Under the pieces are notes generated by a model. That model searched no databases, was not told where the DNA came from, and saw only the letters and a list, made by a program, of their open reading frames with translations. Of a stretch of DNA of 64,000 nt, positions 5,539-32,592 are shown piece after piece; position 1 is the stretch's first letter, and each line of letters opens with the position of its first letter. The position numbers and the translations under genes were made by a program. The stretch comes from Mycobacterium sp. NBC_00419 (GTDB taxonomy: Bacteria; Actinomycetota; Actinomycetes; Mycobacteriales; Mycobacteriaceae). The stretch is from the NCBI RefSeq assembly GCF_036023875.1, contig NZ_CP107931.1, positions 1,612,001 through 1,676,000 of the forward strand, written 5' to 3'.

Positions 5539-6375
5539 ATGATGACTTATGTGCGCCCATTTGCGCTGTCCGCGGCCTGTTTGGCCACCGCGGTGACCGT
5601 GGCAGTGACCACACCGACGGTCACCGATGCTCATCACAGCGTCGCACTCGCAACGCCGACCGTGACGAGTAGCTATGAACTGCTTGCCGATTCGCAGGCG
5701 ACCCGCGAAGTCGCGTACGGCGACTGGGGCGGACTGTTCGCCGGCTTCGGCGAAATCCTCGGCGGGCTGGGGCTGATGGGGAACAACTATCTGAACGCCA
5801 ACCAGGCGAGCGTCCTGGCCTTCACCTCCAAGCTTCCGACACTCATGCTCGGGCCGGTGGCGCTCGGCGGCGGCAGACTCGCCAACGCCTACTACTTCGG
5901 CTACAACGGATCACCCGCCGGTAATGCCGGCGTCGGGGCCTACGTCATCAGCCAGATAACGACCAATATGTCCCTGACGAATCTGGTCAAGAACTTCGTA
6001 CTGGGCCTGACGGGCAATATCCCGAAGTTCTACCTCGGGCCGGTCCAGGTGGGCGGTGGCCTGCTGGCGGATGCCTGGTTCAACGGCTACGGCGGCGGCA
6101 CGGGACCCGGCGGGGTCTACAACTACATCACCGGCAAGACCGGCCTGCCGGCCTCCGCAGGGAAATCCGCGGCCGCCGCCGAGACGTCGGTGGCAGTGGC
6201 GGTGCGGGAAGCCGCCGCGCCGACCGGACATTCGGCGCGCGCAACTCACACCGTCCAGGTGCCCCGCGCAGCTCGCGCCGCAGCCGCCACCGCGTCCTCA
6301 GCACACCAGGCCGAGGCCTCGGCGACGCCGAAAGCCGCCACCACGCACGGCGGGTCGAAGCGTCCTGCCGCCTAG
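5539..6375 (+). CDS. Secreted protein with duplicated LGP(V)xxGGG module
   Basis: A 278-residue exported protein. An N-terminal hydrophobic signal (residues ~5-30) is followed by a region with two copies of one module: LPTLMLGPVALGGG about residue 97 and IPKFYLGPVQVGGG about residue 160, each running into an aromatic FGYNG or FNGYG turn. The C-terminal third is Ala/Pro/Arg-rich and probably unstructured. I do not recognise a named family. A GGGGG-rich site precedes a double ATG. The stop overlaps the stop of the convergent metQ (CTAG), leaving no space for a terminator. Confidence 0.7.
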   Translation: MMTYVRPFALSAACLATAVTVAVTTPTVTDAHHSVALATPTVTSSYELLADSQATREVAYGDWGGLFAGFGEILGGLGLMGNNYLNANQASVLAFTSKLPTLMLGPVALGGGRLANAYYFGYNGSPAGNAGVGAYVISQITTNMSLTNLVKNFVLGLTGNIPKFYLGPVQVGGGLLADAWFNGYGGGTGPGGVYNYITGKTGLPASAGKSAAAAETSVAVAVREAAAPTGHSARATHTVQVPRAARAAAATASSAHQAEASATPKAATTHGGSKRPAA

Positions 6376-7274
6376 AGCGGCAGCAGGATGCCCTTGACGC
6401 TCGGGTCGGTGGCCAGGAACTGCTGAACCGCCGGGTCCTTGAACGTCGCGACCAGCTTCTTGATGTTGTCGGCATCGGCCCAGCGGCTGCCGATGGTGAG
6501 CTGTCCGGCGAACTCGTCGGGCGCGGGCGGGGCGAAGATCTGTTGCTGGAGCGGCACTTTGGCGGCCAGGTAGTACTCGGTGTAGCCGACGGCGGCGTCA
6601 AGATCGGGCAATGAGCGTGACTGCGCCGCGAAGTCGAGCAGCGTGAACTTCAGGTTCTTCGGGTTGCCGACGATGTCCTTGCGGGTGGCGGTCCACTTGT
6701 CGACGGCCGGGTTCAGCGTGATCAGGCCCGCGCGTTCCAGCAGCCACAGGCCCTGGGCCTCGTTGGCGGGATCGGAGTACAGCGAGACGTTGGCGCCGTC
6801 CGGCAGCTGCGAGACGTCACGGTACTTGTCCGACCAGATTCCGAAGCCCCACCGGAATACCGGGGTGGCGGCCTCTTCCCGGAAGTCGGGGTTAGCCTCG
6901 AGCACCTGACCGAGCCACAGCTTGTGCTGATAGATGGTGCCGGCGACTTCGCCGTCACTGACCGCGCGGTTGATGGTGTTGCTGTCGGACAGGCCGCGGA
7001 AAGCCACCTTGATACCGTGCTTCGGGGCGACCTCGCGGCTGATGTACTCGATCAGCGCCTGCTCGGCGGCGTTGCCCTCGTTGGTCGCCACCACCAGCGT
7101 TGCCCCGGGAATCTCGTTGGCGGACTTGGTGTCTCCGAAGAAGAACAACCGTCCCGCGACAACGGCGACAACGACGACAACCAATCCCGCGGCGATCCAC
7201 ACCCATCGACGTCGTTTCTTGATCTCGAACCCGTGGTTGTCGGGACTTTCGACTTCGACTCCGGTGGCGGTCAT
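6372..7274 (-). CDS. metQ: Methionine ABC transporter substrate-binding protein (MetQ/NlpA family)
   Basis: A 300-residue NlpA-family protein that delivers methionine to the MetNI importer. A cytoplasmic tail, a KKRRR stop-transfer cluster and one long hydrophobic helix (residues ~25-46) precede the binding domain, which starts at IPGATLVVATNEGNAAEQ. MetQ is usually a lipoprotein, but no lipobox cysteine is present here (RLFFFGDTK follows the helix), so it should be held by an uncleaved anchor. The ATG overlaps the stop of metI (ATGA), fixing the start and the operon order metN-metI-metQ. Specificity for methionine rests on family and operon, not on residues I could check. Confidence 0.85.
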   Translation of the reverse strand: MTATGVEVESPDNHGFEIKKRRRWVWIAAGLVVVVVAVVAGRLFFFGDTKSANEIPGATLVVATNEGNAAEQALIEYISREVAPKHGIKVAFRGLSDSNTINRAVSDGEVAGTIYQHKLWLGQVLEANPDFREEAATPVFRWGFGIWSDKYRDVSQLPDGANVSLYSDPANEAQGLWLLERAGLITLNPAVDKWTATRKDIVGNPKNLKFTLLDFAAQSRSLPDLDAAVGYTEYYLAAKVPLQQQIFAPPAPDEFAGQLTIGSRWADADNIKKLVATFKDPAVQQFLATDPSVKGILLPL

Positions 7275-7990
7275 GCGGTGACGGTTCCTCTCGAACGGAT
7301 ACGTGCGTGGGGGGTGGTGAAGCGGACAAGGACGTCGCCGATGAACTGCACGGCGGCGACGGTGGCGACGAGGATGACGATGGTGGCGAGCATGACGCCC
7401 TGGTCGAAGCGCTGGTAGCCGTATGTCACTGCGACATAGCCGATTCCACCGGCACCGATGGTCCCGGCGATCGCGGAGTACTCGATCATCGCGATGATGT
7501 TGATCGTCAGGCCGCCGAGAATCGACGGGATCGCCTCGTCGAGCTGGGCGGTGCGGATGATCTGCAGACGCGAGGCTCCCGATGCCCGGGCCACCTTCAC
7601 CACCGACGGCGGAACGGACCGAAGTGCGTTCTCGACGATGCGGGTGAAGAAGGCGATGCCGGCCAGCGACATCGGCACTACCGCGGCCGCGATGCCGATG
7701 TTGGTTCCGGTGATGAAGCGGGTGAACGGCATGATCGCGGCCATCAGGATCAGGAACGGCAGTGACCGCCCGATGCTGATGATCCAGCTCAAAATCGTAT
7801 GCAGTGCCGGGTTTTCGAACAGTCCACCGGGAGCCAGGTTGTGGATCAACGCCCCGAGGGGCACGCCGACGGTCACCACGATGGTCATGACGATGCCCAC
7901 CATGATGAGGGTGTCGAGCAGGGCAGGGATCAGCAGGCCGGGCAGTTCGTTGACGGGGACTTTGGCGCTGGCGAGCAGGGTCGCGGTCAC
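7271..7990 (-). CDS. metI: Methionine ABC transporter permease MetI
   Basis: A 239-residue inner-membrane permease with five predicted helices. The segment ARASGASRLQIIRTAQLDEAIPSI is the coupling loop that contacts the ATPase in the MetI family. It starts four bases before the metN stop and ends inside the metQ start, so the three subunits are translationally coupled. It forms the membrane channel of the D/L-methionine importer. M. tuberculosis has no metNIQ at this locus, so the unit is accessory here. Confidence 0.88.
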   Translation of the reverse strand: MTATLLASAKVPVNELPGLLIPALLDTLIMVGIVMTIVVTVGVPLGALIHNLAPGGLFENPALHTILSWIISIGRSLPFLILMAAIMPFTRFITGTNIGIAAAVVPMSLAGIAFFTRIVENALRSVPPSVVKVARASGASRLQIIRTAQLDEAIPSILGGLTINIIAMIEYSAIAGTIGAGGIGYVAVTYGYQRFDQGVMLATIVILVATVAAVQFIGDVLVRFTTPHARIRSRGTVTA

Positions 7991-21257: not shown

Positions 21258-24200
21258 CTACCCGATCACCACCGGCGCCGAGAACTGCGAGGTGTTGGGG
21301 GCCCCGGCGGTCGGCGTCGCGAGCACGGTGATCCAGTCACCGGCCGCCAGTGCCGTGGCGTCGACCTCGACGCTGAAATCCGACGGGCTCGAGGGCACCG
21401 TTGCGAGCAGCCGCCTGCCCTCGACGTTGCCCGCGTCGCCCGCCGGGCTGCTGTACACCTGCAGCTGGAACGGCCCGGTGCCGGCGACCGATCCGGTGAC
21501 CCGCACCGTCGAAACACCCTGCAGTGTCGCCGATTGCACCACCGGGGCGGGCTGACCGCCGTTGCCGCCGTTGGTCAGCGCGATACCGAGACCGGTGTTG
21601 GCGTAGATGGAGTTCGCGGTGAGCGCGTTGCCGATCGATGTCTGGCCGTTCACCGTCACCCCGTTGCCGGCGTTCGCGGTGATGGTGTTGCCCTCGACGG
21701 ACAGATTCGTGACACCGCCGGGAATCTTGAAGTTCGGGTAGTAGGCCGCCTCGAAGGTGCCCCCGGCACTGGCGAACGCCGTCGACTGCTGCGGGTTGGT
21801 CACCGGGTCGGCGGGCGTGTAGAGCCCCTCGTAACCGCCTGCGGCGTCGTACAGGTAATTCATCCCGGCCACAACCCGCATTCCGGTGTTGAAGAACTGC
21901 TGGCTCATCTGCGGCATGTTCTGCGTGTACGCACCGGCCAGCGGGCTGAAGAACGACACCGAAGTCGCCGTCATCTGATTGGTGGTGTCGGTGGGATCGA
22001 CCGTGTAGCCGACCTTTCCGCCGGAGTTGAGCAGATCAACCGTCAGCTGACCGGTGAACACCGACGACGCGGTGTACCCGGGCAGGGTGAGGATTCCGCT
22101 GGGGATGCCGAGGTCGATCACGACCGTCCCCAAGTCGGAGGTCTGCGACTGGTAGGTGACGCGGCCGGTGGCCGGCTGCCAGTCCGGTGCGCTCTGGCCG
22201 CCTTGGGACAAACCGGACGGTGCGAGATCGGTGTAGGCGTAGGGGGTGCCGGACGTGACCGTGCTGTCCAGGCCCAGCGTGACGCCGTCGGCGGTGATGA
22301 CGTAGCCCGGGCGCATCGTGCCGTCCTGCATCTCGGCCAGGTTGAGGAAGGTGTTGTACGCCTGATTGCGCCCGTTGGCGGTGGGGTCGGTTCCCAGTCC
22401 GGTGCGGTCGAACCCGACGCCGAAGTTCGACACCGGGGCCAGCACACCCGGGTTGGCATCGTAGGTCGCCCACCACCCGCCCGGGATCGTCACGGTGCCG
22501 GCGCCGCCCGTGCCGGCGGTGATGGCCACCTGCTGGGTGCTGCTGCCGTTGGTGATCGTGACGGTGCCCGCATCGGTTTTGGTGGCGAAGGTGGCACTCG
22601 CGGCGGTGGTACCCGGCTGCGGCGTCATCGACGCCCCGACGGCGCTGACCACCAGGACCGGGGCGTAGGCCGTCGCGACCTTCTGGTCGGCGGTGATCTC
22701 GGACCAGGTCGCCTGCGGGAAGGTGATCTCGGGGTTGACCCAGGTGCCGAAGAACAGCCGATTCGAGCTGTTGAGATAGACGTAACCCTTGGTGCCCTGC
22801 GAGGTGTCGAGATAGGGCACGAGGTCCTGGCCGAAGTACAGCCCGCGCGAGCCGGTATCGAGGTAGACCGCGATGGACTGTTCTCCGTTGAGGGACACCA
22901 TGACCTGCGGACCGGTGGGGATCGGCTCGTCGTAGAAGCCGGGGTCGTTGGCATACGGCAGCACGTAGTGGCCCAGGACATACGGGTTCTGGTCGGCCGG
23001 GTTGCCGGGATTGTTGTCGGTATAGCCGCTCAGGGGATTGCCGAAATCGTTGAGCGCCTGGCCGATTCCGGCGCCCAGGAGAATCCCGTCACCGCCGTTA
23101 CCGGTGATGATGTTGCCTTTGACGGTCGTCCCGGTGAAGTCGCCGCCGGTGAACTCGATGCCGTTGCCCTGGTTGTAGCGCAGCGTGTTGCCGGAGATGG
23201 TCAGGCCCTCGACGCCGCCGGGTGCGGTGATCGCGTCACGCCGGTTGTACTGAATCGTGTTGTCCGCGATGACCGTTCCGGTGTAGTCGCCCGCCGCCAG
23301 CACGATGCCGTGGGCATTCGGGCCGCCGGAGGTGTAGCCCCACGGGTTGGTCTGCCCCTTGATGCCGATGGTGTTGTTGCGGATCGTCAGGCCAGTGGTC
23401 GCTTGCAGGGTTTCGATGCCGAAGCCCGAGTTCCCGAAGATGGTGTTGTAGCTGATGGTGGTGTTCGCGTAGTTCTGACCGGCGAACTGGATGCCGTCAT
23501 AGACGTTGCCGGAGATGGTGAAACCGGTGAGCACCGAGGACGGCGAGTCGCCGTTGAAGACCACACCGGAGTTCGTGAAGCCGGTGATGGACCCGCCGCG
23601 GGCGAACGTGGCCGTCACGTTGCCGCCGATGAACAACCCGACTCCCTGGGAGTTGGGCAGGCTGCCACTGAGGGTGACCGGGCCGTTGGCGGTGACGGCC
23701 GCGGAGTTCGTGACCACCAAGCCGCCCAGCGGGTTACGCGCTCCGACCCGTCCGTTGAAAGTAACGGTGTTGCCGGCCGCCGAGACCGACAGCACATGAC
23801 CGGCGCCGGCAGCCGAATCCACGTCGCCGCCGAAGGTGATCGCGGCGTTGGTGGTCTGCACCGAGGTGGGACCGGCGACCGTCGTCGCGCCGCCCACGGT
23901 GAACGCACCACTGGCGGCGACGTAGGCGCCGTTGAGGGTGAGGTCGTCGCCGTAGGACTGTGCGCCCGTGGTGGCGACGGCCGCGGTGACGGTCGATCCG
24001 CCGCGGTCGGTGCCCAGCGCCGCTAGCGGCACGTCGCCGCCCACGGCCCGCACGAAGGTGGTGGTGCCGCGCGAATTGACCTGCAGCGACTGCACTCCGG
24101 CGTTCGCGGCGTCCACGGTGCCGGAGAACGTCACGTCACCCCGGGCGTCGACGGTGGTGTCGCCGGTCACCTGCGTCACGCCAGCCACCGAGAATGTGCC

Positions 24201-26366
24201 GCCGGCGGTGTAGGTGCCGTCGAGTTCGGCGTTCTGGCCGTAGGACTGCGCACCCCGGGTGGTCACCGAATGCAGGTTGACTGTCGACTGGCCGCCGTTG
24301 GGCCGCAACCAGATCACCTGTTCGGCGACGTCGTACATGACGTCGAAGTCATTGAACATGTTCAGGCCGGTGTTGACGTTGGGGACGTCGATGGCCGCGC
24401 CGGTCTCGTTGACGTAGCCGACGAGATTCACCGAGGCGATGTTGCCTGCCGTGGTCTGCCAGACCAGCGGAGCCAGCCCCTTGGTGGTGGGGAACACGGC
24501 GACGAGGGTGGCACCGGCGGTGAGGTTGCCGTCCGCGTCCTCCCCCGGCTTGGGCAGGTCGGGCAGCCGCAGACCGGTCGAGCCGGCGCCGCTGTCGATC
24601 AGGCTGGGCAGCGGCCCGTCGCCCACCGGCACCGGGAACGGATTGCCCACGATGTACTGGGGGCTGAAGCCGAACTGCTGGAGCAGCGGATACCCGGAGA
24701 TCGGGTAACTGCCCGCGGACTCCGGGTAGTTGGGGTCGGGATTGAGGATCTCTGAAATCGGTACGGCATAAGTGAATTGGGCCCGCAGCGCATCGGTGAC
24801 CCCGACGGTCAGCGATGGCGTCGTGCCGATCGGGCCGAGCTGGGCGAGGTAGCCGCTGGAGAGGTTGCCGGGCAGCTGGAACAGCGGGCTGGTGATGAAC
24901 GACCCCGGCGCGTAGAGCACCTGGCCGTTGATCTGCTGGACGCCGAACGCACCGCCGAAGTCACCGGCGAAGGGGCCGCCGAACGGCGCGCTCACCGGAA
25001 TCGGGGCACCGCTGCCGTTGGTCGCGCTGACCACCGCCGAGATGTCCACCGGCTGAGCCGTCGACACGGTGTGGGAACCGGAGCCGATGGTGATGGTCGC
25101 GGCGGTGACGAGACCGTTGAGAGTCTGGCCGCTGGTGTAGGTGATGTCGGCCTGTTCGGTGCCGGGCACCACGCCGGTGAAGTAGGCCGGGTCGTACCCG
25201 GCGAAGAACCCGTTGCCGCCGGTGTCGAACAGGTACTGCCGTGACGGGTTGTTGCCGATCGCGACGTCGATGCCGTACTTCACCGTGACGCCGCCCGCAC
25301 CCGCGACCGGCACGAAGCTCAGCGGGATGGTCTTCGAATCTGCCGACTGCTCGATCTGCAGGGGTGCGATACCCCGTGTGGTGAGGGTGCCCAGCGGCGT
25401 GTAGGAACCAATGTCGCCACCGAACGTTGTTGTCCCCAAAGCGGTTACGGTCAGCGATTGGCCGCCGAACCAGCCCCGCCCGTCGACCGTCGAGGCGAAT
25501 GCCGCGTTACCGGTCCCGGCGTCGATCTCGGTGTCGCGGGCCAGGATCACCGGCGCGTTCAGTGACACGCCGAGCAGTCCGCGCACCCCGTCGGCGACCG
25601 TCACCGGGCCCGGCACCGAGGTGACGTCCACCCAGCCGGTGAACGCCGCCGCCGACTCGAAACGCAGCGAGTCGATACCGGCGGTGGTGAAGTCGGTGGC
25701 CGCAGTTCCCCCGGTGAACACGAACCCGGCGCAGCCGGCGTTACTGGCGCCGTTGGCGCTGACGTGGCTGACCGTGGATGCGCTGAACTGCGCGGCGTTT
25801 CCGAAGCCCGGATCGCCGGACACCTCGATGGTGTCGCCGGTGGTGCGGAAGTAGGCGACGCTTCCGGTATTCACGTCGACGGTCAGCGAGTTGCCGGTCT
25901 GGGTGGCGGTCACCCCGGTCGGCACGAAGCCGAACATGCTGCGCCGGACCAGCAGCAGTCCGCCTTCGACGAGGTCGGTGATCGGGTTGGCGGGCAATGT
26001 CGACACCCCGTCGAAGGCGTCGTTGAACGCGTGGTTGACGGCCGTGACGACGCCCTGCTGGATCGTGGGCGCGGTGAAGCCCCAGCACGCCGCGCAGGAC
26101 GTATTTCCCGCCCGGCGCGGGGTGGTGGTTTTCGCCGCGCTGGTCGAGGCGGCCGGGCGACGGGATGCACCGGTTGCCGTGGCGCGGGGGGTGTTCGGCG
26201 TGTGCCCGGAGACCCGCTTGGGATGGTCGCGCGCACCGCCGGCATGCGACGGGGAACCGGTCGTCCCGCTGTCGGCGGCGGCCACGCCGATCGGCGGGCC
26301 GAGCAGGGACAGGCCCAGCACGAAAGCAGCAGCACCGACATGGGTCGCCCCCCGCGAAAACGACAT
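21258..26366 (-). CDS. Giant secreted protein: two aspartic-protease-like modules with adhesin and beta-helix repeats
   Basis: A 1702-residue exported protein. Order: signal peptide (1-31); Ser/Thr/Arg linker (32-90); a module with CAAC and [17 protein letters not shown] (91-150); aspartic-protease-like module 1 (~355-690) with FDTGGNG (Asp381) and [14 protein letters not shown] (Asp591); haemagglutinin-like repeats containing TTRGAQSYG and [10 protein letters not shown] (~698-900); right-handed beta-helix repeats such as [18 protein letters not shown] (~910-1100); module 2 (~1150-1520) with [11 protein letters not shown] (Asp1170) and [10 protein letters not shown] (Asp1418, D-L-G in place of DTG/DSG); a short beta-helix (~1550-1600); and a beta-sandwich-like end. 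Pepsin-like domains are known in some PE_PGRS proteins (PE_PGRS16, PecA/PE_PGRS35), but here a Sec signal replaces PE. Activity is inferred. Confidence 0.8.
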
Positions 26367-26406: not shown

Positions 26407-27612
26407 TTACTTCAAGGACGACGGAATCAGTGGCTCGTCCAGCAGCCGCCCGAAACGCTCGGTGAGTCCCACCCCGGCGGGGCGTTCATCGAGCCAAGTC
26501 CGCAGCAACCGGTAGCCCTCCACATAGGTGCTCGTGTAGGCCCGCCACAGCGGCGAGGACAGAAACCGCAGCGACTGCCGCGCCCGGGTGTCGTCGATCA
26601 GCAGCCAGCGCTGCAGGAAGGCGGCGACGTCGTCGGCGTCGCGGTGTTCGTCGTGCAGCATCAGCGCCGCGTCCTGGCGCACGTCGGCCAGGGCGGCTGA
26701 GGCCTCCGAAAGCGCTTCGGCGCGTTCGCCGTCGAAGCGCAGACCGAGATCGGCGTAGATGTCGGTGGCCCAACTCCCCCAGCCCGGGCCGACCGCGGCG
26801 TAGAGCGCCAGGTCGGCAAGGCCTTCGGCCATCAGACACTGCGGGGTATTGACCAGGAAGATCGTCTGCTCCTGCTGGTCCTGCCCGGCGACCAGGCCGG
26901 CCTCCTTGCGGCAGTGCTCGGTGTGATGGCCGGGGTAGGACTCGTGGGCGACCAGCCGCGGCAGGTTGGCCATCTGCTGCTTGAGGTCGGCGTTGACCGC
27001 CACCGTCGAGCGGTAGTCGCCGTCGTAGTAGTTGAACCCCGACCACGGTTTGTCGGTAACGACCTCGTAGACGATGGTCTCGGCGTCGGGCAGCGGGTAG
27101 GTGGCCCTGACCTTGTCGCGCAGCGCGCTGGAGAAGGCGTGGATGCACTCCTCGAGGCGCTGCGGCGGGATCTCGTCGGAACTGCGGTGAGCGGCCATCC
27201 GCTCGACCAGTGGCCCGCTACCCCCGAGCACCTCGTCGATGCGGGCGTGGGCGGCGCGGTAGCGGTCCTCGTCACCGCGGCTGATCCGCACATCGAAGTA
27301 GGCCTGTACTTCGTCGACGAACCCGACCGGTTCACCGGCGAACTTGCGGGCCGAGAAGGCCAGGGCACGCAGGTGGGCGCCGATGAAGTCGGCGCGCTGG
27401 TCGGTGAAGCTGTCGGTGCGCGCAACCTGCGGCAGAGCCCCCAGCAGGCGCTGCGCCTCGCGGGCCAGCTCGGCGGGCTGCGGGGCGGACTCGTCGGCCA
27501 CGGCACGGCGCAGCGCCGGGTCGCCGGTGAACGAGTCGACGTAGCCTTCCTCGATGCGGTCGAAACGCAAACCGAGCATGAGGTAGTCGCGGATGAGGGT
27601 GCCGGGCTGCAT
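26407..27612 (-). CDS. DUF885 family protein, putative metallopeptidase-like
   Basis: A 401-residue soluble protein of the DUF885 family. [12 protein letters not shown] resembles the HExxH-type zinc site noted in this family, and a downstream glutamate in [12 protein letters not shown] could be the third ligand. No signal peptide is evident from the chosen ATG ([18 protein letters not shown]), so it is probably cytosolic. It ends about 40 bases before the start of the giant secreted gene on the same strand, and is divergent from coaA. Peptidase activity is family-based inference. Confidence 0.78.
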
Positions 27613-27642
27613 GCCGTCCACGCTAACTGCAAGACTGTGCCC

Positions 27643-28581
27643 ATGGCGCGGCTGAGCGAACCCAGCCCCTACGTGGAGTTCAACCGGACTGAGTGGCGCG
27701 GACTGCGCATGTCGACCCCGTTGAAGCTCACCGAGGACGAGCTGACCGGGCTGCGCGGTATGGGCGAGCAGATCGACCTGCTCGAGGTCGAAGAGGTCTA
27801 TCTGCCGCTGGCCCGATTGATCCATCTGCAGGTTGCCGCGCGCCAGCGGTTGTTCGCCGCAACCGCGGAGTTCCTCGGCGAGCCGCAGCAGAATCCCGAC
27901 CGGCCGGTGCCGTTCGTGATCGGCGTGGCGGGCAGCGTGGCCGTCGGCAAATCGACCACCGCACGCGTGCTGCAGGCGCTGCTAGCTCGCTGGGAGGACC
28001 ACTCCCGCGTCGACCTGGTCACCACCGACGGATTCCTCTACCCCAACGCCGAGTTGGGCCGTCGAAACCTGATGCACCGCAAGGGTTTTCCAGAAAGCTA
28101 CAATCGACGCTCACTGATGCGTTTCGTGACGTCGGTGAAATCCGGTGCCGATCAGGTGTGCGCGCCGGTGTACTCGCACCTGATCTACGACATCGTGCCG
28201 GGCGAGAAGCACGTCGTCACCCATCCGGACATCCTCATCCTGGAGGGGCTCAACGTCCTGCAGACCGGTCCCACGCTGATGGTCTCGGACCTGTTCGACT
28301 TCTCGGTGTACGTCGATGCCCGCATCGAGGACATCGAGCACTGGTACATCGAGCGGTTCCTGGCGTTGCGCAGCGGCGCATTCGCCAACCCCGCGTCGCA
28401 CTTTCATCACTATGCGGGGTTGTCCGACAACCAGGCCGTCGCGGCCGCCCGCGACATCTGGAGTTCGATCAACCGGCCGAACCTCATCGAGAACATCCTG
28501 CCGACCCGGCCGCGCGCGACGCTGGTGTTGCGCAAGGATGCCGATCACGCGATCAACCGGCTGCGGCTGCGCAAGCTCTAA
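27643..28581 (+). CDS. coaA: Pantothenate kinase, type I
   Basis: A 312-residue CoaA, the same length as Rv1092c. It phosphorylates pantothenate in the first step of coenzyme A synthesis. Walker A is [21 protein letters not shown] is the substrate-binding aspartate region, and [11 protein letters not shown] and [10 protein letters not shown] match conserved PanK elements. The ATG at [18 protein letters not shown] is the usual start. It is monocistronic; its stop overlaps the stop of the convergent hypothetical gene by four bases. Confidence 0.95.
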
Positions 28582-28994: not shown

Positions 28995-29202
28995 GACAGC
29001 AAACCCTAGTCGGGGTTTGTCCTCGGCGCGGCAAGCCGGTGGATATGCCGGGTGAACTCCTCAGGTCCTTTTGATCGCAAACGGCCGCTTCACAGCTCAC
29101 CCATAGCTACAGTTCGATCTGCGCTGAGGTCGGGTTCAGCAGATAAGCCTTCCCTCCGTGTGCCCATCCGTCAGGCAGTACGCACCCCCGGAGGACCTCG
29201 CG

Positions 29203-32200
29203 ATGACTTCAACCGTTCCTCAATCCGGTTCTGCCGCCTGCTGGGTGGGCCGTGTCGGGGGGCTTGCGGTGGCGTTGGGGGTCGGGGTCGGGATTGCGTG
29301 GGCGGCCGGCAGCGCGCAGGCCGATACCGGGTCCTCGTCGACCGGATCGTCGGCGCGGCAGCAGTCTTCGCACTCGGCGTCGTCGTCGAAGGCCGGGACG
29401 CGGACAACGGCCGTGCACCCCTCGGCGGCCGTGACCGGCCCAGTCGCCACGGTCACCCACACGCCCACCGTCACCTCCCGCGCGGCGGCATCGACCGCCA
29501 GGACCGCGGTCACCGCCCCGAGCGTTCCCGTCGCCTCGATCAGCGCGTCGTCCACCGGCAACCCGATCGCCGACTTCGTCGCCATCTTCGTCAGCGACGG
29601 CACCGCCGACCATCCCAACGCCGGCCTGCTCGTCGGCAACGGCTACAGCTACACCACCGCCACCTGCGCCAGCCTGTCGTGTGCGGGCGGGCGCGGCGGC
29701 CTGCTGTACGGCAACGGCGGCAACGGTGCCAAAGGCGGCCCCGGCGGCGTCGCCATCTTGTTCGGCAACGGCGGAAACGGTGGCGACGGCATCGCCGGCG
29801 TCAACGACGGCCGTGGCGGCGACGGCGCTTCCGGCGGACTGTTCAGCGGCCGGGGCGGCGACGGCGGTCACGGCATCGACGGCGTCGCCGGAGTCAACAA
29901 CGGCGCCGGAACAGCCGGTGGAAATGGCGGCGGCACAGGACTTTTCGCGGTATCGAGCACTGCGGGTAACGGTGGCACCGGCGGCAACGGAGCCAACGGC
30001 GGCAACGGGGCTGCGGGCATCGGCGCAGGGGCCAACGGCGGCAGCGGCATTACGGGCGGCGCCGGCGGCGCGGGCGGAAACGGCGGCAGCGCCGGGCTGT
30101 TCGCCCTCTTCAGTGTCGGCGGCAACGGTGGCGAAGGCGGCAACGGCGCCAAGGGCGGCAGCGGGGGCAGTGGCGTCACCGGGTCCGACGGCGGGGCCGG
30201 GCAGGCGGGCCAGGCCGGCGGAAACGGCGGAGCGGGCGGTACCGGCGGCGCCGGCGGCGTCGGCGGCACAGCCGGTCGCGGCTCGATTTTGTTGGGGCGC
30301 ACGGGCGCTAACGGCGACGGCGGCAACGGCGGCAACGGCGGCGATGCGGGCACCCCAGGCGACGGCGGCGACGGCGGCGACGGAACAGCCGCCGCACTCG
30401 ACGGCGGCAACGGCGGGGCCGGCGGGCAGGCGGGTGCCTTGGGTCTGGGCGGTGCGGCAGGCGCGGCCGGAGGCAGCGTCGGAAACGGCGGCACGCCGGG
30501 CGCCGCCGGGACGGCGGGCACCGGCATCAGTGGCCTGTTCGGTTCAGGCGGCGACGGCGGCGACGGCTTCAGCCCCACCACGCACGGAACCGACGGCGGC
30601 AAGGGCGGAAACGGCGGCGATGGCGGCACCAACGGCAACGGCGGCAAGGGTGGCAACGGCGGCAACGGATTCGCCGGTGCAGCAGGTGACACCCCGAGCA
30701 GCCCCGGCCAGTCGGGCCTGACCGGTCAGACCGGCGGTAAGGGCGGCGCGGGCGGCAACGGCGGAACCGGCGGTTCGGTCATCGGTAACGGTGGCGCCGG
30801 CGGCACGGGCGGAAACGGCGCGCGGGGCGGAAACGGCGGCGCCGGGTCCAACGGCGCGGACGGCACCGATCCCGGCCAGAACGGCGGAGACGGCGGTAGC
30901 GGCGGCAACGGCGCTAGCGGCGGTGCGGGCGGCGCCGGCGGGAACGGTGGCGGCGTGGCCGTCGGCGGCTCGGGCACCAAGGGCGCCAACGGTGACGGCG
31001 GCAGCGGTGGCGACGGCGGCAACGCCGGGGCGGCCGGTGACGGCGGCGACGGCAAGAACGGCGACGCGTCCTCCCCCGACGGCGGCAACGGCGGAAAGGG
31101 CGGCGATACCGGATTCCGCGGCCAGGGCGGAGCGCGCGGACTGGCCGGTACCGGCGGCACAGGCGGCACCGCCGGCTCCAACGGAACGGCAGGCACCCTG
31201 GTGTCCGGGGTCTCGGGCAACGGCGGCGACGGTGGTGACGGCTGGGATGCCACCACCCCCGCAACCAACGGCGGCAACGCGGGCAGCGGCGGAAACGGTG
31301 GCAGCAACGGCAACGGCGGCAAGGGCGGAACCGGCGGTGACGCCTCCGACGGAGACGGCGGCAATGGCGGCAACGGGGGCAGCTCGTCGGTGACCGATGG
31401 CACCGGTGACCGCACCGGCGGCAACGGCGGCGCGGGCGGAAACGGCAGCGACAACGGCGGAAACGGCGGCAACGGCGGCTCGGTGTTCAACTCCGGGACC
31501 GGTAGCGCCACCGGCGGCAACGCCGGCTCGGGCGGCACCGGGACCACCGGTGCCGGCGGCACCGGTGGCAATGCCGGAAACGCCAAGATCCTCAACACCG
31601 GCTCGTCGGCCGCCGCCACCGCAGGTGCAGCCGGCAATGGCGGGAACGGAGCCGGCGGCGGCAACGGCGGCACCGGGGGCAGCGCCGAGACCGCGGGAAC
31701 CGGATCCGTCACCGCGACCGCGGGTGGGGTGGGCCGTGACGGTAGCGCGGGACCAGGTGGAAGCGGCGGTGATGGCGGCGACGCCATCATCACCAATACG
31801 TCGTCGACCGAAAACGCGGTCGGCGGTGCCGGCGGTGCGTCAGGGACCGGAACGGTCGGCGGCAATGGCGGCGCGGGTGGCAATGCCTCCAACCGTGGCA
31901 GCGGCGACGCCAGTGGCGGAAGCGGCGCATCCGGCCAGGACGGAACCATCACCGGCGGCAAGGGTGGGCGTGGCGGCAGCGCGGTGACCGAGGGCGGCGG
32001 ACGGTCGACCGGCGGCAACGGCGGCTACGGCGGCGCGGGCGGAACAGGCACCGGCGGCGACGGTGGTCAGGGCGGTGCCGGCCTCGTGACCAGCCTCAGT
32101 TCCGGCATTGTGGTGGGCGGCGACGGCGGACAGGGCGGAGACGGTGCGACCGTCGGCGGCATCGGCGGCGCCGGCGGTACCGCATTGACCAACGGAACCG

Positions 32201-32592
32201 GGGACGCGTTCGGCGGCGCCGGCGGATGGGCTGGTAGCTCGTTCGGTGGTGCGGGCTCCAGCGGCGGACTCGGCGGCAGCGCCATCATCGTCAACTCGAC
32301 CTCTGACGGGTCGGCGTACGGCGGCAAGGGTGGCATCGGTGGTCTCGGCACCACGACGGGCGGCACCGGCGGCGGTGGCGGCGCAGCCAGCACCTCAGGC
32401 ACGGGATACGCCAGCGGCGGCAACGGCGGCCAAGGCGGTCTGGGCATCTCCGGCGCCAACGGCGGCAACGGCGGAAATGGCGGAGACGCGTTGTCCCCCA
32501 ACGATAATGCGACCGGAGGCACCGGCGGACCCGGCGGCGGCGCGTTTCCTCCCGGCACGGCCGGATCCGACGGCGCGAACGGCACTCCCTAG
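29203..32592 (+). CDS. Secreted PGRS-domain protein lacking a PE domain
   Basis: A 1129-residue protein. A conventional signal peptide (about residues 15-41, ending SAQADTG) replaces the PE domain. A Ser/Thr-rich linker and the short segment GNPIADFVAIFVSDGTADHPN follow, then CASLSCAGGRGGLLYGNGGNG opens a ~950-residue run of GGxGGx (PGRS) repeats extending to the C-terminus. In M. tuberculosis such repeats are fused to PE and leave by ESX-5; the Sec-type N-terminus here implies another route. GGAGG lies eight bases before the ATG. It lies close to the place of PE_PGRS22 beside coaA. The function is probably cell-surface or extracellular. Confidence 0.85.
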   Translation: MTSTVPQSGSAACWVGRVGGLAVALGVGVGIAWAAGSAQADTGSSSTGSSARQQSSHSASSSKAGTRTTAVHPSAAVTGPVATVTHTPTVTSRAAASTARTAVTAPSVPVASISASSTGNPIADFVAIFVSDGTADHPNAGLLVGNGYSYTTATCASLSCAGGRGGLLYGNGGNGAKGGPGGVAILFGNGGNGGDGIAGVNDGRGGDGASGGLFSGRGGDGGHGIDGVAGVNNGAGTAGGNGGGTGLFAVSSTAGNGGTGGNGANGGNGAAGIGAGANGGSGITGGAGGAGGNGGSAGLFALFSVGGNGGEGGNGAKGGSGGSGVTGSDGGAGQAGQAGGNGGAGGTGGAGGVGGTAGRGSILLGRTGANGDGGNGGNGGDAGTPGDGGDGGDGTAAALDGGNGGAGGQAGALGLGGAAGAAGGSVGNGGTPGAAGTAGTGISGLFGSGGDGGDGFSPTTHGTDGGKGGNGGDGGTNGNGGKGGNGGNGFAGAAGDTPSSPGQSGLTGQTGGKGGAGGNGGTGGSVIGNGGAGGTGGNGARGGNGGAGSNGADGTDPGQNGGDGGSGGNGASGGAGGAGGNGGGVAVGGSGTKGANGDGGSGGDGGNAGAAGDGGDGKNGDASSPDGGNGGKGGDTGFRGQGGARGLAGTGGTGGTAGSNGTAGTLVSGVSGNGGDGGDGWDATTPATNGGNAGSGGNGGSNGNGGKGGTGGDASDGDGGNGGNGGSSSVTDGTGDRTGGNGGAGGNGSDNGGNGGNGGSVFNSGTGSATGGNAGSGGTGTTGAGGTGGNAGNAKILNTGSSAAATAGAAGNGGNGAGGGNGGTGGSAETAGTGSVTATAGGVGRDGSAGPGGSGGDGGDAIITNTSSTENAVGGAGGASGTGTVGGNGGAGGNASNRGSGDASGGSGASGQDGTITGGKGGRGGSAVTEGGGRSTGGNGGYGGAGGTGTGGDGGQGGAGLVTSLSSGIVVGGDGGQGGDGATVGGIGGAGGTALTNGTGDAFGGAGGWAGSSFGGAGSSGGLGGSAIIVNSTSDGSAYGGKGGIGGLGTTTGGTGGGGGAASTSGTGYASGGNGGQGGLGISGANGGNGGNGGDALSPNDNATGGTGGPGGGAFPPGTAGSDGANGTP

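Follow-up and report, generated by a model that had tools for sequence, protein, structure and literature searches.

The 64,000-nucleotide stretch of Mycobacterium sp. NBC_00419 analysed here (contig NZ_CP107931.1, positions 1,612,001 to 1,676,000; hereafter the window) carries an open reading frame (ORF) for a 1702-residue protein with two pairs of pepsin-like aspartate motifs set among repeats, and raises the question of what a mycobacterial protein would do with two such domains, the second of which has Leu in place of the usual Thr/Ser of its second motif. The ORF (21258-26366) starts with ATG and lies on the minus strand, which the first-pass annotation, correct in position and length, had not given. 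The answer to which we give about an even chance is that of a Sec-exported surface protein with two pepsin-type modules on a beta-solenoid stalk, in which module 1 (M1) cuts surface proteins and module 2 (M2) is its remodelled partner.

A homologue search gave 132 proteins at E <= 0.001 among 7993 candidates scored, and the best 120 of the 132, together with the query, formed a family set of 121 sequences, with M1 present in 118 and M2 in 64 (at least 75% of the module covered); 35 diverse relatives of M2 were also compared. Selection was expressed as the ratio of non-synonymous to synonymous substitution rates (dN/dS). The modules and their aspartates were placed as follows.

21258-26366, minus strand: coding sequence, 1702 residues; 118 of the 121 family members contain M1, and no region reaches a dN/dS of 0.5 with respect to the nearest relative.
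24282-25331, minus strand: M1, residues 346-695, predicted bilobed pepsin-type aspartic protease.
25224-25226, minus strand: Asp381, first motif (DTGG) of M1; Asp in 117 of 118 aligned sequences, with one gap.
24594-24596, minus strand: Asp591, second motif (DSGA) of M1; Asp in 118 of 118.
21747-22991, minus strand: M2, residues 1126-1540, a domain of predicted bilobed pepsin type that interrupts the beta-helix between rungs.
22857-22859, minus strand: Asp1170, first motif (DTGS) of M2; 64 of 64 close members and 35 of 35 diverse relatives.
22113-22115, minus strand: Asp1418, second motif (DLGI, Leu replacing Thr/Ser) of M2; Asp in 64 of 64 and 35 of 35.

The four aspartates were found at the residue numbers first proposed, with spacings of 210 residues in M1 and 248 in M2, in the contexts LFDTGG (D381), LIDSGAG (D591), YLDTGSRG (D1170) and VIDLGIPSG (D1418). 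Their conservation across the family, together with the predicted models, excluded a chance origin of the motifs. The second motif of M1 was DSG in 96 sequences, DTG in 20, and DDG and DNG in one each (n = 118); residue 384 was Gly in 112 and residue 594 Ala in 108 of the 118. In the pepsin family, the Thr/Ser after the second aspartate links the two lobes at the active site. In M2, the first motif was DTG in all 64 close members, and the residue following Asp1418 was Met in 45, Ile in 9, Leu in 8 and Thr in 2, the lobe-2 motif reading D-[MIL]-G-[IYF] in 62 of the 64; among the diverse relatives this residue was Ile (15), Ser (9), Met (8), Thr (2) or Leu (1). In the series P0141-P0162, which includes stand-alone M2 genes, the second motif was D-I-G throughout except in P0149 (D-S-G). 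The Leu found here is within the normal state of this M2 branch, and M2, with an invariant aspartate pair beside Met/Ile/Leu, offers a stringent way to ask what the activity of an aspartic protease requires. Candidate flap tyrosines were Tyr or Phe in 118 of 118 sequences for Y410 (M1), and in 64 of 64 close and 25 of 35 diverse members for Y1197 (M2).

Both modules are predicted to be bilobed pepsin-type folds, in agreement with the first-pass annotation, whose refuting outcome of a different fold did not occur: the predicted models superposed over both lobes on pepsin-type structures (11-18% identity in the structural alignments listed against family A1), and from this superposition the two aspartates of each module would face one another. 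At the sequence level, the M1 profile also matched Sapp2, a Candida protease, with the DTG in register (E 0.0034). Profile comparison showed M1 and M2 to be homologous to each other (hhalign E 7.3e-14, probability 98), the motifs of both lobes being aligned with one another; smaller alignments gave E 4.8e-6 and covered the second lobe only. A kinship to the domain of PE_PGRS16 and PecA (PE-PGRS_C, PF20729) had been proposed for both modules; by the same method M1 is a remote relative of this domain (hhalign E 5.3e-15, probability 98.4, 306 columns, no shared rows), and the link was weaker for M2 (E 2e-5, probability 77). The PE-PGRS_C alignment (A5) had four rows, two of them originally found with the M1 profile; a comparison of alignments A3 and A5 (E 1.7e-42) was discarded because P0137 and P0139 were in both, and A1 was compared with A5 instead. 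Of 19 proteins retrieved by the M1 profile, 5 carry PF20729, and this model matched 1 of 11 M1 relatives, weakly (0.013); a distant M2 relative (P0198) matched it below its cut-off. No significant Pfam match, PF20729 and the pepsin families included, was obtained for M1 or M2 of the 1702-residue protein, and PDB sequence searches gave nothing with the full protein and alignments A1 and A4, and only two unrelated weak matches with A2. The PE_PGRS16 domain structure (PDB 4EHC) was not among the best 50 matches listed per module model, which is no argument against kinship. One protein from an Acidobacteria bin (L020 5557-7383 / L081 9226-11052) matched both the M2 and the PE-PGRS_C profiles, and is a possible family intermediate.

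The whole ORF was under purifying selection: dN/dS with respect to the nearest relative (Nei-Gojobori, own script, some synonymous rates near saturation) ranged from 0.18 to 0.45 over seven regions, being 0.19 for M1, 0.32 for M2 and highest for residues 1-94 (0.45). Over five comparisons, M2 gave values of 0.25-0.49, never outside the span of the other regions and, in three comparisons, below all of them. With these values and the invariant aspartate pair in the 64 close and 35 diverse members, M2 does not look like a decayed copy, and the suggestion that it is structural was not supported as worded.

Relatives of the two modules were also found as adjacent genes in two Verrucomicrobia-class genomes. 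In a Spartobacteria genome (G396), an M1-like gene (L018 4705-5874, DTG/DTG) with a signal-like start and, by eye, a PEP-CTERM-like end was followed after an 18-nt gap by an M2-like gene (5893-7317, DTG/DIG); a third M1-like gene, divergent, was located beside this pair (L079). In G706 (L074), an M1-like gene was likewise directly upstream of an M2-like gene. Both pairs have the same strand and the same module order as the mycobacterial fusion, and their adjacency suggests that the modules likely work as a pair; they also offer a small, expressible version of the two-module system.

The presence of an M1 partner was compared with the residue after the second aspartate in the 19 M2 domains with readable context: this was Ile, Leu or Met in 11 and Thr in 2 of the 13 domains with a partner, and Ser in 4, Ala in 1, Thr in 1 and Ile, Leu or Met in none of the 6 without. 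For the Thr case without partner (G399), M1 was not found in the whole genome. Left out were the M2 of G787 (DSG, 582 nt from a contig end and also omitted from the neighbour count below), G565 (partial M2), L039, L040 and L047 (cut or broken), the other P entries, L017/L088 (the same record, with 320 N and M1 and M2 in different frames), and the M2 of the 1702-residue protein, for which its near relative L044 stands. The contrasts were in the expected direction or without difference, never opposite, and the partner pattern was treated as a lead.

In the partnership proposed here, the protein would likely be exported by Sec to the cell surface, where M1, judging from its D-T-G and D-S-G motifs, would be a catalytically active surface protease. 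Ala594 corresponds to pepsin position 218. In renin and HIV protease, Ala at this position is associated with a neutral pH optimum (PMC2761423), so M1 is expected to act at near-neutral pH. The analogy with PecA suggests that M1 would likely trim surface repeat proteins, including the 1702-residue protein itself. M2, which has no hydroxyl residue after the second aspartate, would likely depend on M1, either as a protease of weaker or specialised activity or as a partner that holds substrate or has a regulatory role. A more specific proposal, put forward tentatively and somewhat unlikely in our judgement, is a two-protease machine in which an active canonical aspartic protease is joined by an obligate sister with a Met/Ile/Leu swap and both aspartates kept, encoded as an operon-like pair in Verrucomicrobia and, in mycobacteria and planctomycetes, as a fusion set on a beta-solenoid; if true, this partnered extracellular system would be of a new kind among bacterial pepsins.

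Several observations weigh against the partnership. No M1-like neighbour was present in the stretch read for 4 of the 6 full-length M2 genes of five Verrucomicrobia-class genomes: those of G594, G645 and G778 (DSG; 14-19.5 kb read) and the second copy of G396 (DAG; 11 kb read). The partner pattern amounts to 2 independent contrasts on starred branches, with which significance is unattainable, and two proteins with both modules (P0113 and P0121) have DTG as the second motif of M2. The candidate flap tyrosines Y410 and Y1197 were offset by one residue in the M1-M2 alignment, and, in our own placement, the psi-loop of lobe 1 was [DN]FG and that of lobe 2 NTG, in place of the hydrophobic-hydrophobic-Gly of family A1. 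Finally, no membrane or LPxTG-type wall anchor was seen in the 1702-residue protein, so its retention at the surface is assumed.

Some of these points suit a different explanation, in which M1 and M2 are independent active proteases with different substrates and the scaffold serves only for display: M2 domains do exist without M1 in the same protein or in the stretch read, the aspartate pairs of M1 and M2 are alike conserved, and purifying selection acts on both. We nevertheless consider it unlikely, because a bulky hydrophobic residue follows the second aspartate in 62 of 64 M2 domains, unlike the Ser/Thr of family A1 (PMC2761423), and because it is the partnerless M2 domains that have Ser/Thr (5 of 6) or Ala (1 of 6) at this position.

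Comparison with known systems bears on whether the modules are enzymes at all. PecA is an active, self-cleaving surface protease, which also cleaves PE_PGRS proteins and is inactive as a DTG mutant; its being both bacterial and extracellular is described as unusual (PMC6819658). The same source cites a study in which activity of PE_PGRS16 was not observed. The 1702-residue protein resembles PecA (PE_PGRS35) and PE_PGRS16 (PF20729; 4EHC) in being mycobacterial and putatively extracellular, and in its two-aspartate DTG/DSG domain and lobe-2 NTG; this N-T-G psi-loop, as we place it, is common to M1, M2 and two PE-PGRS_C domains of the same genome. It differs in having no PE domain (Pfam), a Sec-like start, two modules without a match to the PF20729 model, and the location of these mid-protein among repeats and not at the C-terminus. 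It may represent a second extracellular lineage of such domains in mycobacteria, with two modules in one polypeptide.

Family A1 (pepsin, renin, cathepsin D, plasmepsins) is characterized by the motif hydrophobic-hydrophobic-Asp-Ser/Thr-Gly-Ser/Thr, with the Ser/Thr after Asp defining it (PMC2761423). The predicted models of M1 and M2 have its bilobed fold, and the Asp and Gly of the motif are retained in every sequence with the position occupied, but the full motif was not found in either (Gly384 and Ala594 in the last positions of M1; D-[MIL]-G in lobe 2 of M2), nor was its psi-loop or a match to a Pfam pepsin family. Seven bacterial pepsin homologues such as the shewasins are bilobed like M1 and M2, and six of the seven have Ala at position 218, as M1 has (by the body text of PMC2761423; its abstract prints Asp); unlike M1 and M2, which are probably extracellular and sit on a large scaffold, they have no signal peptide and are predicted to be intracellular (PMC2761423). 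Family A1 also includes non-peptidases (PMC2761423), and M1 and M2 might both be pepsin-fold binding domains for adhesion or ligand capture, comparable to the pregnancy-associated glycoproteins or the xylanase inhibitor, as their adhesin-like, beta-helical scaffold and the lack of observed activity in the relative PE_PGRS16 (study cited by PMC6819658) would suggest. This is improbable: the non-peptidases named in PMC2761423 lack the conserved active-site aspartates, which are kept here in 117 of 117, 118 of 118, 64 of 64 and 64 of 64 sequences where the position is filled, and the other characterised relative, PecA, is active (PMC6819658).

The scaffold of the two modules was composed of the following regions.

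26274-26366, minus strand: putative Sec signal peptide, residues 1-31 (h-region about 9-26, A-x-A near 29-31), from hydropathy.
26085-26273, minus strand: low-complexity Ser/Thr/Arg/Lys-rich linker, residues 32-94, from the sequence.
25332-26084, minus strand: N-terminal region ending in adhesin-like repeats, residues 95-345; family-wide, with 45% repeat similarity to residues 736-786.
23670-24281, minus strand: adhesin-like repeats after M1, residues 696-899; weak DUF5649 match below the cut-off (E 0.0039, three stretches), placed by self and family comparison.
23010-23669, minus strand: first part of the right-handed beta-helix, residues 900-1119; PF13229 match on residues 890-1130 (E 2.9e-17).
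21261-21746, minus strand: last beta-helix rungs and C-terminal domain, residues 1541-1702; weaker PF13229 match on residues 1535-1702, which falls slightly short of the cut-off of 25.9 (22.8 bits, E 7.5e-5).

The N-terminal residues are the hydropathy maximum of the protein and compatible with a Sec signal, and Sec export is probable. Beta_helix (PF13229) matched within the protein with 65.5 bits (cut-off 25.9; E 5.5e-18), and the scaffold is predicted to be a beta-solenoid stalk, with adhesin-like repeats on both sides of M1; in contrast to other right-handed beta-helix proteins, the helix is here interrupted by a pepsin-fold domain. The PE-free repeat scaffold described in the first-pass annotation was confirmed (no PE domain by Pfam), with Sec export probable, but the modules are about 430 residues apart and not adjacent. 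A search of NCBIfam gave no match for the protein. Nor is the layout unique to this protein, since both modules are present in 62 of 116 classifiable homologues. No description of a tandem aspartic protease, of an aspartic protease with a beta-helix, or of such a layout for PEP-CTERM with aspartic protease or Verrucomicrobia with pepsin-like proteins was found in titles and abstracts (mostly outside subscription journals).

A paralogue in the same genome (420-423 kb; M1 profile E 2.7e-139) continues from rung to rung without M2, and a related scaffold in G979, from the class of the Planctomycetaceae bin, has M2 without M1 in that protein (L086); each module can therefore be present or absent independently. 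In a tree of 116 M1 sequences (2 of the 118 were unclassifiable and left out), the M2 label changed 5 times, 2 of these forced by starred branches, with gain and loss not distinguishable. The two-module gene and an M1-only paralogue are about 1.2 Mb apart in this genome; in five mycobacterial loci (L038, L040, L042, L043, L046) an M1-only paralogue directly adjoins the two-module gene.

M2 was found in 18 of 396 same-genus genomes (10 full-length, 1 partial, 1 broken into three ORFs and 6 with only shorter ORFs that match weakly), M1 in 32 of 396 if its weak matches are counted, and PE-PGRS_C in 69 of 198 genomes. The broken case (L047 of G009) has its three ORFs in different frames, and is a pseudogene or a sequencing error. 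The genome is a single 5.6-Mb contig; the 5' neighbour of the two-module gene (26407-27825, minus strand) ends 40 nt upstream of the start codon, and glyA (serine hydroxymethyltransferase), on the same strand, begins 38 nt past the stop. Among 10 other same-genus genomes (6-19.5 kb fetched from each), this glyA neighbourhood was shown only by the nearest relative, G241. Such a patchy, accessory distribution and scarcely shared location would fit extracellular proteases for nutrient scavenging or for degrading prey or polymers, a reading with only a slight chance of being right, since the place of the modules on a long repeat scaffold suggests attachment and PecA, the characterised active relative, acts on the surface proteins of the cell that makes it (PMC6819658).

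Outside the genus, M2 was found in 8 of 384 genomes of the class of the Spartobacteria genome and in 2 of 397 of the class of the Planctomycetaceae bin. M2, for which no Pfam model scored above its cut-off, has relatives in Verrucomicrobia; the labels of metagenome bins place others in Planctomycetes and Acidobacteria. The bin labels of L010, L015, L017 and L020 may reflect mis-binning: the G+C content of L010, L015 and L017 (0.66-0.70) is not distinct from that of the mycobacterial loci (0.65-0.69), and the phylum cannot be assigned from the housekeeping genes next to L015, for a PHO4 transporter and GMP synthase. Better support for the planctomycete link comes from G979 and P0113, the latter with a Planctomycete extracellular motif below the cut-off. 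Of 59 proteins of M2-like length from the M2 profile search, 6 had PEP-CTERM and 7 had Ig-type Pfam domains (two of each kind, or borderline, were rescanned).

The nearest independent homologue of the 1702-residue protein was P0003, an "S-layer family protein" of Mycobacterium sp. DL592 (86% identity). Two plus-strand antisense ORFs (830 and 1002 residues) were taken as GC-rich artefacts, as homologues and selection follow the minus strand.

Other proteins of this genome have related features. A 546-residue protein (L037 1492-3132, 737 kb) has a Sec-like start, contains a single M1-like module (E 4.3e-32) and, by eye, resembles the M1-like proteins beside M2 in Verrucomicrobia. Two proteins with PE-PGRS_C above the cut-off (L034 82-2409, 4.625 Mb; L033 1465-3384, 2.447 Mb), one of them with PGRS repeats, have no PE domain by Pfam and, by eye, a Sec-like start, suggesting that PE-free export of PE-PGRS_C domains is not confined to the 1702-residue protein. 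In the window, 29158-32592 (plus strand) encodes a 1144-residue Gly-rich PGRS-like protein (PGRS 18.7 bits, cut-off 27); Pfam detected no PE domain in it, and a hydrophobic stretch close to its N-terminus is Sec-like. Residues 62-148 of the 1702-residue protein (25923-26183), a short N-terminal segment that closes with hydrophobic residues and Arg-Arg (..LLLVRRSMF), recur at 37-50% identity in other ORFs of the genome (L004, L005), and are perhaps a surface-targeting motif.

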